Shown in pieces: positions 10,981 through 35,000 of a stretch of DNA of 38,696 nucleotides (positions are counted from its first letter, which is position 1; each line of letters begins with the position of its first letter). Both the position numbers and the translations under genes were made by a program. This DNA is from Syntrophomonadaceae bacterium (lineage in GTDB: Bacteria > Bacillota > Syntrophomonadia > Syntrophomonadales > Syntrophomonadaceae). The notes beneath the pieces are model-generated. The model saw nothing but the letters and a program-made list of their open reading frames with translations, had not been told where the DNA came from and made no database searches. The stretch covers positions 1-38,696 of the forward strand of contig JAAYJK010000131.1 of assembly GCA_012522955.1 (NCBI GenBank). Direction: 5' to 3'.

Positions 10981-11290
10981 CTGAATCCCAGGGTCCAGAG
11001 AGGGCAATGGCCAAGGGGCTGTGAGCCTGGCTGAAAATAAGTAAAAGGGAACAGAAAAAAGCCTGCCGTGACAACGTAAGAGTTGTGTTGTCACGGCAGG
11101 CTTTTTGGGGGTTATTTTTAAGCTAGGATTTAGGCTAGTTTAATATAGATATGCCAAATATACTCCCCTGCAGCTGACTAATAAAAGGGGCAGAAAAGAT
11201 CCAGAGTCTATTAGCGGCAGGCCTGTCTAAGGTTCTTTTATAACCAGCTCTTGAATAAAGATTTTTAAAAGTCTTTAGGGGGCTAGATTA
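10981..11290 (+). other. Intergenic region before the P-type ATPase
   Basis: 310 bases without a gene. It holds a strong bidirectional terminator (11055-11106). The rest, including the 180 bases before the ATPase, shows no clear promoter pair; AT-rich segments around 11140-11160 are the likeliest place. Confidence 0.6.
11055..11106. terminator. Strong bidirectional intrinsic terminator
   Basis: GCCTGCCGTGACAAC (11061-11075) pairs perfectly with GTTGTCACGGCAGGC (11087-11101), a 15-bp GC-rich stem. An A run before it and TTTTT after it allow termination on both strands. It ends the 8.8-11 kb unit. Confidence 0.93.
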
Positions 11291-17596: not shown

Positions 17597-18787
17597 TTGG
17601 CCAGATTTTTATTTACGTCTGAGTCTGTGACCGAAGGCCACCCTGACAAAATGGCAGATCAGATATCTGATGCTATACTGGATGCCATACTCGAACAGGA
17701 TCCTTATGGTCGAGTAGCGGCAGAAACTCTGGTTACCACCGGGCTAGTATTTGTGGCCGGGGAGATAACAACCAGTTGTTATGTTGATATACCTAAACTG
17801 ATTCGGGATACGGTATGCGAAATAGGATATACCCGGGCCAAGTATGGTTTTGATTGCGACACTTGTGCAGTGCTCACTTCTTTGGATGAACAGTCTCCAG
17901 ATATTGCCTTAGGAGTTAACAAGTCGCTGGAGGCCAAGCGGGGGGAGATGGATGATAGTCACATTGAAGCCATTGGAGCTGGCGACCAGGGAATGATGTT
18001 TGGATATGCCACCAACGAGACCGAGGATTTTATGCCTATGCCTATTTACCTGGCACATAAATTGGCTCACAGGTTGACTCAGGTTCGCAAGGAGGGTGTT
18101 TTGCCTTATTTGCGTCCAGATGGCAAAACTCAGGTTACGGTAGAGTATGAGGATCATCGGCCGGTAAGGATTGATACCATTGTAGTCTCTACTCAGCATG
18201 GTCCCGAGGTAGACAATGAGACCATATTTAATGATATTATCGAACAGGTGATTAAGGTAGTCATACCAGGGGGTATGTTGGATGATAATACTAAATACTT
18301 TGTTAATCCCACCGGACGTTTTGTTATTGGAGGTCCTCAGGGAGATTCGGGCCTAACCGGCAGAAAGATCATTGTTGATACATATGGAGGAATGGCACGC
18401 CACGGGGGAGGAGCATTTTCCGGCAAGGATCCCACCAAGGTGGATCGTTCCGCTGCCTATGCTGCTCGCTATGTAGCCAAAAACATCGTAGCTGCAGGAA
18501 TAGCTGATCGCTGTGAAATACAACTGGCTTATGCTATTGGTATTGCCAATCCAGTTTCTATTATGATTGATACCTTTGGTACCGGTAAATTGCCTGAAGA
18601 CCAGATTATTGCTCTGGTCCGGGCCAACTTTGATTTGCGTCCAGCTGCTATTATAAGAGATCTGAAGCTACGCCGGCCCATATACAAGAAAACTGCAGCT
18701 TATGGTCACTTTGGAAGAAATGAAGAGGAATTTACCTGGGAAAAAACTGACCTGGCTGGACAACTGAGGGAACAGGCGGGGCTATAA
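17597..18787 (+). CDS. metK: S-adenosylmethionine synthetase
   Basis: 396 residues, full length. Motifs [38 protein letters not shown] and [16 protein letters not shown] bind ATP, methionine and metals. It makes the methyl donor used by RsmB and the SAM cofactor of RlmN and YhcC encoded downstream. The start is TTG 17597 with AAGGAGATGATC, almost a perfect match to the 16S tail. No SAM riboswitch is visible in the 24 bases upstream, so expression probably follows the coaBC transcript. In B. subtilis metK is elsewhere; here it sits between coaBC and priA. Confidence 0.97.
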
Positions 18788-19102
18788 TTATTCGACCTGA
18801 AGTCGATTGTGCGCAGATGCAACAGGGCTCTCTTTAAACAAGTGGGCAACTGTTCATCTGCGGTTTGCTTATGCTGGTGCTTAACACCGATAAGTTCACA
18901 AGAAAATGAATTATCTGCCGGAAAATTGGTAATCATGCGGGCGACCACAGGTCGCCCCTACAGACCAACACCGTTAATATGGATCTCATACAGGCATATG
19001 TAGGGGCGGTCTTTGACCGCCCGTCGGGCATAGCTAAATTTTTATAATAGGTTGTGCATGGCGGTTGATAAGTTGTTGCCTGGCACCGATGGAGGTTAAC
19101 CT
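18788..19102 (+). other. Intergenic region between metK and priA (repeat-bearing)
   Basis: 315 bases without a credible gene. The right half is the dispersed repeat at 18878-19036. No clear promoter pair for priA was found; the SD GGAGG lies just before ATG 19103. Confidence 0.7.
18878..19036 (+). repeat. Dispersed hairpin repeat, copy 1
   Basis: 159 bases that recur in reverse orientation at 34842-35000. The core has two hairpins: GGGCGACC/GGTCGCCC (18939-18957) and GGGCGGTC/GACCGCCC (19004-19022). CCCCTACA (18955-18962) can also pair with TGTAGGGG (18999-19006), joining them into one larger inverted repeat. It encodes no protein. It could be a MITE-like element or a terminator/processing signal for metK. 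Confidence 0.88.
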
Positions 19103-21499
19103 ATGAAATGGGTGGAAATACTGGTTGACTTGCCCTTGCAGGAAAGTTCCGCAATTTACCACTATGCGGTACCCGATCACCTGCTGGAACAGGCTGAATT
19201 TGGTCGGCGGGTTACGGTTGAATTGGGTAACCGCAATATAGAAGGATTTATCATTAGTCAGCTCAGGTGGAGTGAAACAGAATTATCCATTAAACCGATT
19301 ATTAAAGTACTGGATCTAAGTCCAATATTCGATCAGGAATTATATGACTTAGCTCGGTGGATGGCGGATAATTACCTTTGCCCCCTATCAACTGCGTTGA
19401 AAAGCATGATACCACCGATTTTACATCGTAAACGAGGCCAATGGGTGGTTCCTCTACTCAGTAGGGAGGATATGATTAGTAAGATCCTCCATTCTAAGTG
19501 GCAATTCCAAAATATGGAGGCAATAGTGGAGGTATTATACGGGGATAGAGCCCTGAGCCTATCCGAAGCCTTAGGCTATACTGATGAAAAAACCTTGCAC
19601 TTTATGGCTGAAAGCTCCTGGATTGAAGTGGTGGGTAAGTACTCCATTAAGAATAGACCAGATATAAAGGCCATGGTATATCGATTAGCTCTAGACCATG
19701 AACAAGAGCTGGACCTGGAAAAGATAAAAAAAAAGTCACCCCGGCAGGCGGAGTTCCTGCAGTTACTAAACTCCGGCCCCATGGAGATGAGTGAAGCACA
19801 TCGCCGATTTGCCGCCAGCAGTATAAAGTCCTTATTAAACAAAGGGTATATTAGCATGGCTCACAAGGAGGTTGGGGCAGAAACCCTAGCTCTTAGCCTA
19901 AACCGGGAACAAAAGCTGGCGGTAGAAGCAATTCAAGAGGCAATTAGGTCCCATAAATATAAAGAATTTCTTTTACATGGGGTGACTGCCAGTGGCAAAA
20001 CGGAAGTATATCTGCAGGCTATACAGACTTGTTTGGACAGCGGCAGAAGCGCACTGGTATTGGTGCCGGAAATTGCCCTGACCCGACATATAATGGATCA
20101 GTTTATCCGGCGTTTTCCTAACACAGCAGTATTGCATAGCAATATGGCCGGGATGGAACGTTATGAATCCTGGAAACGGATCCGGGATGGAGAAAGCTGT
20201 TTGGTGCTGGGGACTAGATCGGCCGTATTTGCACCGCTGCTCCATCCAGGGTTAATAATAATTGATGAAGAACACGAAAACACATATAAGCAGGAAGACA
20301 ATCCCAAATATCATGCCGCCGAAGTAGCCCGCCAAAGGGCTAAATTTAATCAGGCGGTGGTTGTGTATGGCAGCGCCACTCCATCCCTGGATACTTATTA
20401 TAGAGCGGTACGGGGGGAAATAGCACTACTAGAGATCAAGGAGCGCATAGTCCAACAACATAGCCCGTTGGTTCATATTGATGATCAACGTAAAAATATA
20501 AGTTCCAAGGTTATAGGAGATTTGCTGGCGCAAAAAATACGAAGCGCCTTGGATAATAATAGCCAGTGTATTCTATTTCTAAATCGACGCGGCTATTCCC
20601 CTATTAGCATCTGCAGGCAATGCGGGGCAGTAGTCACCTGTCCATTCTGTTCGGTAAGCTTGAACTATCACCAGGATAGGCAGTTAAGTATTTGTCATTA
20701 CTGTAGTTACCAGGAGCCCAAGTTAAGTGCTTGCCGGGCCTGCGGAAGCACCTTTTTGGATTGGGCTGGCTATGGGACACAAAAAGTAGAGGAAGAAATT
20801 AAGCAGCTATTTCCACAGGCCAAAATAGCCCGCCTGGATCTGGACAGCAGTAAAGCTGTTGGAGTCCAGGAACAAGTATTACGGGGCATGAAGACCCGGG
20901 CTATTGATATTCTCATCGGCACTCAAATGGTAGCCAAAGGACTCGATTTTCCAGCTGTTTCACTTATGGCTATTCTAAATGTGGATGCCATGCTAAACTT
21001 GCCAGACTATCGGGCAGGGGAACGGGCATTTCAATTAATAGTGCAGGCTGCAGGTAGGGCGGGCCGAGGAGAATTGCCGGGGGAAGTAGTTATTCAGACC
21101 TATAACCCGGATCATCCTATTATTGGCTGGGCGGTAGCCCACGATTATGAAGCTTTTTATAAGTCGGAAATAGAGCATCGTAAATTGCTTAACTATCCTC
21201 CATTTACTAATATTATGAGGTTGGTATTAAGCAGCCGGGATGAAACCGCAGCCGATCAGGCAGCCCGGAACATCCAGCGGCAGTTATGTGACTTAATTGA
21301 TGCCCGGGAGGAGGATATAGATATTCTGGGGCCGGCTCCATGTCCTCTGTTCAAGCTAAGGAATCGTTATAGACAGCAGATAATTATAAAATGCGATAAT
21401 ATGTTATTATTAAAAAGTATAGGTGAAAGATTATTGTATCAAGGTAAGAGGAAAGGCTGTAGATTGGCCATTGATATAAATCCTTTAAATATGCTTTAA
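19103..21499 (+). CDS. priA: Primosomal protein N' (replication restart helicase PriA)
   Basis: 798 residues. An N-terminal DNA-binding region is followed by Walker A GVTASGKTEV near 293-302 and the DEEH box (IIDEEHENTYKQ). A zinc-binding Cys cluster begins at C504 (CRQCGAVVTCPFC, then CHYC and CRACGS). The motif V/VI region GTQMVAKGLDFP and QAAGRAGRG follows. It reloads the replisome at stalled forks and unwinds the lagging arm. ATG 19103 follows a GGAGG SD, and priA begins a tight cluster (priA-def-fmt-DUF116-yugP-rsmB) with gaps of 4-16 bases. Confidence 0.97.
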   Translation: MKWVEILVDLPLQESSAIYHYAVPDHLLEQAEFGRRVTVELGNRNIEGFIISQLRWSETELSIKPIIKVLDLSPIFDQELYDLARWMADNYLCPLSTALKSMIPPILHRKRGQWVVPLLSREDMISKILHSKWQFQNMEAIVEVLYGDRALSLSEALGYTDEKTLHFMAESSWIEVVGKYSIKNRPDIKAMVYRLALDHEQELDLEKIKKKSPRQAEFLQLLNSGPMEMSEAHRRFAASSIKSLLNKGYISMAHKEVGAETLALSLNREQKLAVEAIQEAIRSHKYKEFLLHGVTASGKTEVYLQAIQTCLDSGRSALVLVPEIALTRHIMDQFIRRFPNTAVLHSNMAGMERYESWKRIRDGESCLVLGTRSAVFAPLLHPGLIIIDEEHENTYKQEDNPKYHAAEVARQRAKFNQAVVVYGSATPSLDTYYRAVRGEIALLEIKERIVQQHSPLVHIDDQRKNISSKVIGDLLAQKIRSALDNNSQCILFLNRRGYSPISICRQCGAVVTCPFCSVSLNYHQDRQLSICHYCSYQEPKLSACRACGSTFLDWAGYGTQKVEEEIKQLFPQAKIARLDLDSSKAVGVQEQVLRGMKTRAIDILIGTQMVAKGLDFPAVSLMAILNVDAMLNLPDYRAGERAFQLIVQAAGRAGRGELPGEVVIQTYNPDHPIIGWAVAHDYEAFYKSEIEHRKLLNYPPFTNIMRLVLSSRDETAADQAARNIQRQLCDLIDAREEDIDILGPAPCPLFKLRNRYRQQIIIKCDNMLLLKSIGERLLYQGKRKGCRLAIDINPLNML

Positions 21500-30996: not shown

Positions 30997-31036
30997 TGAA
31001 GATGATAATATAAATTAACAAAAATAATAAACGATA

Positions 31037-31150
31037 CTTTCTTCGGGGATGGGTGAAAGTCCCTATCGGCGGTTATAGCCCGCGAGCCGTTAAGGCAGGA
31101 TCTGGTGTGATTCCAGGGCCGACAGTTAAAGTCTGGATGAGAGAAGAAGG
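31037..31150 (+). ncRNA. FMN riboswitch (RFN element)
   Basis: The conserved RFN core is present: TTCGGGG-ATGGGTGAAAGTCCC, then CGGCGGTTATAGCCCGCGAGC, GGCAGGATCTGGTGTGATTCC, GGGCCGACAGTTAAAGTC and GGATGAGAGAAG. The closing stem pairs CTTTCTTC (31037-31044) with GAAGAAGG (31143-31150). It lies upstream of ribD with a terminator at 31194-31220, so high FMN should stop transcription of the rib operon. Confidence 0.97.
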
Positions 31151-31193
31151 ATAATTGGACCTGCCTTATGTGCAGGATAGTTACTCTGTGCTC

Positions 31194-34276: not shown

Positions 34277-34323
34277 TTAATGAATTGATTTAGTGAATAA
34301 CATATTAGAGGAGGTTGCTAGGA

Positions 34324-34788
34324 TTGCCAAAAGTATATGAAGGACAATTAATTGGAGAAAATTTAAAATTCGGTATTGTTGTTTCCAGGTTTAATGAATT
34401 CATCACCAATAAGCTCATGTCGGGATGTTTGGACACCCTGTTAAGGCATGGGGTGGAAAAAAGCAATATTGAGGTGGCCTGGGTACCAGGAGCATTTGAA
34501 ATACCTTTAGCGGCTCAGAAAATGAGCCAGAAGGGCTATGACTCAGTGATCTGCCTGGGTACCGTGATCAGAGGAGCAACCCCGCATTTTGAATATGTGG
34601 CTGCAGAAGTTACCAAGGGCGTAGCCCAGGTAGGTCTAAGCACAGGAATACCTGTTATTTATGGAGTTTTAACTACTGACACCATTGAGCAGGCTATTGA
34701 AAGAGCTGGCACCAAAGCAGGCAACAAGGGTTCAGATGCGGCCATGACCGGGCTGGAAATGGTTAATCTTTTTAAGAATCTGGGATAG
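34324..34788 (+). CDS. ribH: 6,7-dimethyl-8-ribityllumazine synthase
   Basis: 154 residues: [20 protein letters not shown] then [36 protein letters not shown] and GVLTTDT. It joins the RibB and RibD products into lumazine, the substrate of RibE. The frame also opens at TTG 34315, directly on the SD GAGGAGG (34308-34314), so TTG 34324 with a 9-base spacing is the better start. Last gene of the rib operon; no strong terminator follows directly. Confidence 0.97.
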
Positions 34789-34841
34789 TTTGAGCTGATA
34801 AGCTCCATCATCGTCGAGAACATTAGCGAGCATCAAAATGG

Positions 34842-35000
34842 TAGCTATGCCCGACGGGCGGTCAAAGACCGCCCCTACATACGCCTCTCTGAGTTCCATA
34901 CTTAACGTTGCTGGTCTGTAGGGGCGACCTGTGGTCGCCCGCGATGATTACCAATTTATCGAGGGATAAATCATTTTCGCGTGAATTTATTGCTAAGCAC
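34842..35000 (-). repeat. Dispersed hairpin repeat, copy 2
   Basis: 159 bases, the reverse-complement partner of 18878-19036. Both hairpins are identical in sequence to copy 1, while the middle and outer flank have drifted. On the minus strand the order is GTGCTTA flank, AAATTGGTAATCAT, first hairpin, spacer, second hairpin, GTCGGGCATAGCTA. It lies just after ribH, so it could act in 3' end formation. Confidence 0.88.

Follow-up and report, generated by a model that had tools for sequence, protein, structure and literature searches.

REPINs, reportedly the subject of work by Bertels and Rainey in 2011, are inverted doublets of REPs (repetitive extragenic palindromes) with GTAG on the outside and a conserved spacer, and they move as a unit. 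In the available part of the survey of GTAG repeats (Di Nocera, 2013; PMC3733652), a palindrome of 20–40 bp with a stem of 6–13 bp carries an unpaired GTAG at one of its feet; the repeats occur as singles or as head-to-head (HH) and tail-to-tail (TT) dimers 20–100 bp apart, either homo- or heterodimers, they are sorted into families 1–24, and REPtrons are missing in some species. As for the transposases, the accessible sections of the 2018 TnpAREP classification (PMC6006769) give in-gene REPs as the hallmark of subclass 2.4 (RAYT group 4), state that this subclass abounds in Cyanobacteria and Bacteroidetes and is scattered in other groups, name the Clostridia only for subclass 1.1, and also cover REP-bearing genomes that are without the gene.

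The window analyzed here, a stretch of 38,696 nucleotides, belongs to a Syntrophomonadaceae genome (G000; 2.53 Mb in 137 contigs, completeness 99.85%) and holds two inverted copies of one repeat. We consider it very likely that each copy is a TT heterodimer of GTAG-tagged REPs which, together with conserved flanking modules, makes up a BIME-like mosaic moved by a REP-associated tyrosine transposase (RAYT) of the subclass 2.4 type. The parts of the two copies and the genes beside them are as follows.

17597 to 18787, plus strand: metK, upstream of copy 1 (Pfam S-AdoMet_synt domains)
18895 to 18938, plus strand: left flanking module of copy 1 (consensus beginning TTCACACGAAAATG), common to the majority of the 24 aligned TT pairs; boundary approximate
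18939 to 18961, minus strand: type A REP hairpin of copy 1 (GTAGGGGCGACCTGTGGTCGCCC), by hairpin pattern and type scoring
18962 to 18999, plus strand: spacer of the TT dimer of copy 1, GTAG feet inward, from the sequence and the alignment of TT pairs
19000 to 19022, plus strand: type G REP hairpin of copy 1 (GTAGGGGCGGTCTTTGACCGCCC), by hairpin pattern and type scoring
19023 to 19074, plus strand: right flanking module of copy 1 (GTCGGGCATAGC to GGTTGATAAG), from the alignment of TT pairs; boundary approximate
19103 to 21499, plus strand: priA, downstream of copy 1 (Pfam PriA domains)
34315 to 34788, plus strand: ribH, upstream of copy 2 (Pfam DMRL_synthase)
34795 to 34855, minus strand: right flanking module of copy 2, decayed, from the alignment of TT pairs; boundary approximate
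34856 to 34878, minus strand: type G REP hairpin of copy 2, by hairpin pattern and type scoring
34879 to 34917, minus strand: dimer spacer of copy 2, from the alignment of TT pairs
34918 to 34940, plus strand: type A REP hairpin of copy 2, by hairpin pattern and type scoring
34941 to 34985, minus strand: left flanking module of copy 2, from the alignment of TT pairs; boundary approximate

A preliminary description of this DNA had placed the two copies in opposite orientation at 18878–19036 (plus strand) and 34842–35000 (minus strand), which is borne out by ungapped blocks of 66, 41 and 47 nt aligning at 89, 95 and 81% identity. The repeat exceeds the 159 nt given there: similarity spans from about TTCACACG (18895) to about TTGATAAG (19072). 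Each hairpin has a perfect 8-bp stem and a 3-nt loop, with the same sequence in copy 1 as in copy 2, the differences between the copies being confined to the spacer and flanks; in each copy the GTAG/CTAC feet of the two hairpins point inward across 38–39 nt. Counted on the letters, the two arms within a copy are alike at 18 of 23 positions (about 20 of 25 had been proposed), and four of the five differences make up two compensated stem pairs, the fifth lying in the loop, as expected from the earlier observation that the arm differences preserve pairing. Compared with dinucleotide shuffles, copy 1 folded as RNA has a z-score of -3.8, with none of 200 shuffles equally good, and copy 2 folded as DNA a z-score of -2.8, with two of 200 equally good. 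Elsewhere in the window, an FMN riboswitch (Rfam RF00050, 111.5 bits) is found at 31035–31152 on the plus strand, upstream of an ORF at 31168, and a perfect 20-bp inverted repeat with an 11-nt loop at 11056–11106 is probably a terminator.

The preliminary description made its reading depend on further copies in the genome, and these are present in number. BLAST gave at least 47 matches to the element in G000 at E ≤ 1, a lower bound from the 40 of 134 candidates that were scored, and a hairpin pattern with its inner bases left free gave 106 matches, including at least five nested CGCCCGCCC ends counted twice; nearly all are of type A or G, and the reversed pattern has 0 matches. This contrast, together with the Watson-Crick pairing of the free inner pairs, rules out a chance origin of the hairpins. 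We fetched 77 stretches on 40 contigs, made up of pattern matches among those listed and of places found by BLAST, the last pattern matches being included only where BLAST had also found them. At a threshold of at least 18 of 23 matches to a type, with weaker hairpins dropped, 121 hairpins were scored in these stretches among the matches listed, 69 of type G and 52 of type A.

By copy number and hairpin form, the two window repeats are among about 100 small palindromic repeats of mobile type that form one family in this clostridial genome. With their GTAG foot, 23-mers with an 8-bp stem, high dispersed copy number and both HH and TT dimers, they classify as GTAG-tagged REPs in a BIME- or REPIN-like arrangement, a known kind of repeat of which this family is itself a new member. 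They resemble families 1–24, as these are set out in the available part of PMC3733652, in the GTAG foot, the 8-bp stem, the short loop and the many, mostly intergenic copies, and also in occurring as singles and as HH and TT heterodimers whose stems differ in complementary residues. Unlike those families, which the same part of the survey assigns to Proteobacteria, Cyanobacteria, Chloroflexi and the PVC group, the family in G000 is clostridial; neither “Firmicutes” nor “Clostridi-” occurs in the text of PMC3733652. Our literature searches found nothing on REPs or RAYTs in Firmicutes except one unrelated paper, nothing on extragenic palindromes in Syntrophomonas and, for the string GTAGGGGCG, no title on REPs among the matches listed.

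Within the 77 stretches, opposed pairs less than 75 nt apart comprise 24 in TT (GTAG inside) and seven in HH (GTAG outside) orientation, and every one of the 31 is a heterodimer of A with G. Under random pairing, 0.49 heterodimers per pair would be expected, and hence a probability of 3e-10 for 31 of 31, a figure that overstates the case because pairs of common descent do not count independently. Three head-to-tail neighbors (one A-A, two A-G) were left out of this count, and 59 of the 121 hairpins lie outside any such opposed pair. Inverted REP pairs are likewise a feature of the E. coli BIMEs with their Y and Z REPs, in E. coli of several subtypes; a difference from BIMEs and REPINs is that TT pairs in G000 outnumber HH pairs.

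The modules around the hairpins combine in more than one way. The left module, beginning TTCACACGAAAATG, and the right module, ending TTGATAAG, are both common to the majority of aligned TT pairs, solo G hairpins with a different left side also carry the right module, and some of the seven HH pairs have a common spacer of their own, though no movement of these as a unit was observed; the window copies are TT and not HH. Judged by these combinations, flanking modules, solos and HH pairs form a mosaic of the type described for BIMEs, and the conserved flanks of 45–60 nt on both sides could constitute a separate mobile unit. Sharing of both modules among most TT pairs, and of the right one with solo G copies, is also what a conventional MITE of about 180–200 nt would leave behind, the modules being its true ends, a DDE transposase its mover and the REP hairpins mere passengers. 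We give this explanation very little probability: by eye, the two ends do not form inverted repeats, no target duplication was seen at the two sites in comparison with diverged relatives, so that neither mark of a TIR-type MITE was found, the same hairpins occur with other flanks in HH pairs and solos and also inside RAYT genes, and REP dimers with conserved spacers are documented in the available part of PMC3733652. Class I copies have a median identity of 77%, the best pair reaching 93%, and so no recent movement was caught.

Other repeats occur near or within the mosaic. An element ending like CAGACTGTCSGAAAA lies in or directly at REP hairpins in three stretches, L088 (G000:C63:40617–40876), L092 (C75, after 283) and L096 (C76:8763–8968); it measures about 160 bp in L096. 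In L088, where GGGC flanks it on either side, it interrupts the 5' stem of an A hairpin. Presumably it resembles the REP-targeting IS elements. In L061, L089, L113, L114 and L127, a short palindrome like GGTGCCTGGCACC is found close to the right module or, in a few copies, to the left one; a strict pattern of this type has three matches in the 77 stretches, the others having been recognized by eye, and the palindrome is perhaps a further module of the mosaic. In the congener G004, tandem arrays of pieces of the element about 90–130 nt apart, as in clustered BIMEs, are found at C183:2795–3332 and C30:5177–5523. The clustered GTAGGGGCGACYTNRTGTCGCCC matches in G087 (C3:740601–754069) are mostly on one strand, with 21 in the reversed control, and are probably an unrelated kind of repeat.

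Comparison with relatives shows the presence and absence expected of a mobile type of repeat, as the preliminary description had suggested. Within 600 nt after metK or ribH, no hairpin was found in G001, G002, G003, G005 or G027 (shuffled control, 0 matches in 240 sequences); the first three are congeners, and both window sites are without hairpins in each of them. The gap between metK and priA is short in G002 and G003, and longer and unrelated in G001. In G004 the contig ends 164 nt past metK and has there a single G stem whose foot is changed, and three hairpins in a different arrangement follow ribH, so that REPs at the two sites may predate the split from G004. Target duplications, also called for in the preliminary description, were not visible at either window site, the relatives being too diverged for a clean junction.

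The preliminary description further proposed insertion at transcript ends or a role in 3' processing, a proposal close to that of an RNA element kept at the 3' ends of genes for termination or for protection of the mRNA. Copy 1 lies directly past a conserved terminator-like hairpin of metK, seen by eye and not called by the rule-based scan, which found no intrinsic terminator in 18700–19110, on the side of copy 1; copy 2 lies between ribH and another conserved terminator-like hairpin (by eye). The two copies, one after and one before such a hairpin, are therefore not equivalent as “transcript ends.” Genome-wide, with gene context taken from long ORFs and not from annotation, 80 hairpin clusters comprise 37 between co-directional genes, 21 between convergent and 11 between divergent genes, two inside small ORFs, and nine at contig edges, which remain unplaced. 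Among the 37 co-directional clusters, 24 are nearer to the 3' end of the upstream gene, and the excess of convergent over divergent sites has a one-sided p of 0.055. Placement downstream of genes is thus a weak trend, one that resembles the REP bias described in the available part of PMC3733652; a role in termination or 3' processing is not supported, and for 3' processing we found no evidence. The convergent excess, the strength of the hairpins against shuffles and the position of copy 2 ahead of a terminator-like hairpin would all suit an RNA element. We nevertheless see hardly any probability in it, considering the scan result at copy 1, the absence of hairpins at both sites in the three congeners, the 11 of 69 placed clusters that lie between divergent genes, the lack of any Rfam family at gathering score at the two repeats, and stem changes within copies that go uncompensated, as detailed below.

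In an alignment of 23 copies, substitutions per site amount to 6.3% in the A stem, 3.0% in the G stem, 10.4% in the spacer and 19.3 and 17.8% in the flanks. Some of the sequence in the outer flanks may not be homologous, and the stem rates may be lowered by the choice of 20 of the 23 copies for having both hairpins recognizable. This alignment leaves out four TT pairs whose spacers are unrelated (L057, L110 and two in L111) and takes in three copies found by BLAST, with damaged or lost A hairpins. The earlier statement that the spacers have drifted and the hairpins have not is accordingly right in degree, although the stems change as well. Among 364 ungapped stem-pair cells, 28 are changed: 21 are unpaired, six are G-T and one is compensated. 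That one compensated cell and six others come from L090, in which the A hairpin is mostly deleted and misaligned; without L090, the 21 changed cells are 16 unpaired, five G-T and none compensated.

A different picture emerges when REP types and genomes are compared with one another. The pattern placed no constraint on the three inner pairs, yet all three are Watson-Crick in 84 of 92 of the genome's own hairpins, in 13 of 16 at loci of relatives and in 48 of 51 unseeded sites of other records, 28 of these 51 being of one type, AAC/GTT. Stem centers also vary by genome, with GGGGC in G028 and AAC/GTT in several Clostridia MAGs. The preliminary description had read selection on the fold from the paired changes within a copy, and had taken free loss of stem pairing as an argument against it. 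The arm difference within a copy reflects two REP types found genome-wide, and hence is not drift inside one copy; covariation of the stems between REP types and genomes supports selection on the fold at that level. Within the family pairing is in part lost freely, the changed pairs being mostly broken, and selection on single copies as RNA structures is not supported. The simplest reading is that only hairpin-competent units spread and that the copies then decay, the fold probably being needed for spread.

The hairpins also led to candidate transposases. In a collection of 84,980 genomes, at least 117 stretches matched the A/G hairpin pattern, one hairpin per stretch being sufficient. The 117 listed include 82 from Bacillota or unsorted, three from Syntrophomonadaceae, 15 from Myxococcales/Myxococcaceae, six from Betaproteobacteria, five from one Coriobacteriales MAG, three from Fibrobacteres/Chitinispirillales, and one each from Acidobacteria and Bacteroidetes; single matches in G+C-rich genomes may be due to chance. 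Seven of these listed stretches carry a RAYT ORF, two of them cut by the start of the stretch, with two GTAGGGGCG hairpins in frame, one per strand; in most of the seven, their translations are VGANCVRPQ-like and GRPQVAPT-like peptides. An eighth stretch (L220) has a weak Y1-like ORF (E 0.0054) that ends at a hairpin. Among solved structures, a profile built from the seven RAYTs has one match, E. coli TnpArep (4er8; E 6.6e-9), and over 17 genomes it finds a remnant in G000 (C43:11532–11840; E 3.2e-30, positions 9–123 of 180 in the model). The remnant has 110 codons from its ATG, stops soon after the second hairpin and is without the last 57 of the 180 profile positions, about a third. Two hairpins lie in its frame, a decayed A (plus strand, 5 of 23 mismatches) and a G (minus strand, 1 of 23), and an A stem that lacks the GTAG foot (4 of 23 mismatches) lies upstream. 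Against NCBIfam REP_Tyr_transpos the remnant scores 27 bits (E 3.1e-6; cut-off 80), and the open reference RAYTs L321 and L222 are likewise under that cut-off. In direct scans with Pfam Y1_Tnp (cut-off 23) the remnant reaches 13.4 bits and L222 14.5; the remnant's score explains why the Pfam search missed it, and the genome-wide search missed even the RAYT of G028, despite its 25.7 bits when scanned directly.

The family member G028 has an open RAYT of the remnant's type, of 246 aa, with nine hairpins of that genome's own type, three in frame, three before and three after. RAYTs are accompanied by one hairpin inside and one at the end in G033 and by two beside the gene in G013. Neither in G000 nor in the congener G004, both fragmented assemblies, did the profile search find a full-length RAYT of the remnant's type; G004 has 158 hairpin-pattern matches, and its best profile match is only E 0.17. 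The Pfam search gave two Y1_Tnp matches in G000, L031 (319 aa) and a fragment, L032 (95 aa), neither of which was accepted as the cognate transposase, there being no GTAG hairpin on the 3.4-kb contig of the former or on the stretch of the latter. L031 (on contig C5) is an open RAYT-like gene at 81 bits against the REP_Tyr_transpos cut-off of 80, a second RAYT-like kind that adjoins an ORF resembling an IS91-type transposase (by eye), and it could act in trans on the hairpins. In 15 relatives, with a hairpin detector that recovered 68 of 77 known loci, 51 of 53 Y1_Tnp matches were covered: 47 loci are without a tagged hairpin, three have one GGAG-tagged candidate, and one, in G013, has GTAG hairpins that belong to the neighboring RAYT. 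The failure to find a full-length gene, the open L031 and the many Y1_Tnp loci without tagged hairpins speak against the RAYT reading of the REPs.

The cognate transposase was probably a RAYT whose reading frame itself contains REP hairpins, the hallmark of TnpAREP subclass 2.4, a subclass assigned here from the in-gene hairpins alone and not from a place in the TnpAREP tree. The three G-C pairs at the foot of the stem and the in-frame REPs resemble subclass 2.4 as presented in the accessible sections of PMC6006769; unlike in that subclass, no full-length tnpAREP with its cognate REP was found in G000, the gene there being a truncated remnant. Acting on single-stranded DNA, such a RAYT (HUH-Y1) would recognize the hairpin together with its GTAG foot and would copy or move REP units into intergenic DNA. 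We infer that a RAYT of the remnant's type did the moving of the REPs in G000, and that the REP population is now mostly frozen, because the sole gene of the cognate type found there is truncated.

The in-gene and genomic hairpin types can be compared in four genomes. In G000, the in-gene types A and G are those found genome-wide, and in G028 both are GGGGC. The in-gene AAC and ACC of G101 both occur elsewhere in that genome, together with a third, unrelated center (GGATT...ATCC), and G105, with ACC in the gene, also holds GCC and CGC centers. By their letters, then, the match between in-gene and genomic types is suggestive and not exclusive. G101, G102 and G105, the genomes of L222, L231 and L276, each have several hairpin families that share the GTAGGGGCG foot and differ in their centers within the one genome, and in G106 families with this foot often form closely opposed pairs. 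It is possible, if rather doubtful, that the two REP types of a genome such as G000 were set by the two hairpins of its transposase gene, as a record of founder and specificity, and that truncation of the gene left a stranded, decaying population. If true, this would explain why close dimers are of A with G only, and why the stem center changes with the transposase between genomes.

The family adds a large population of GTAG REP heterodimers in a probably syntrophic clostridial genus. It offers a natural case for comparing REPs, a truncated transposase whose in-gene hairpins match them, and the open, REP-flanked RAYT of a relative. If in-gene hairpins predict genomic REP types across genomes, the origin of REPs and their choice of target would become testable from sequence.
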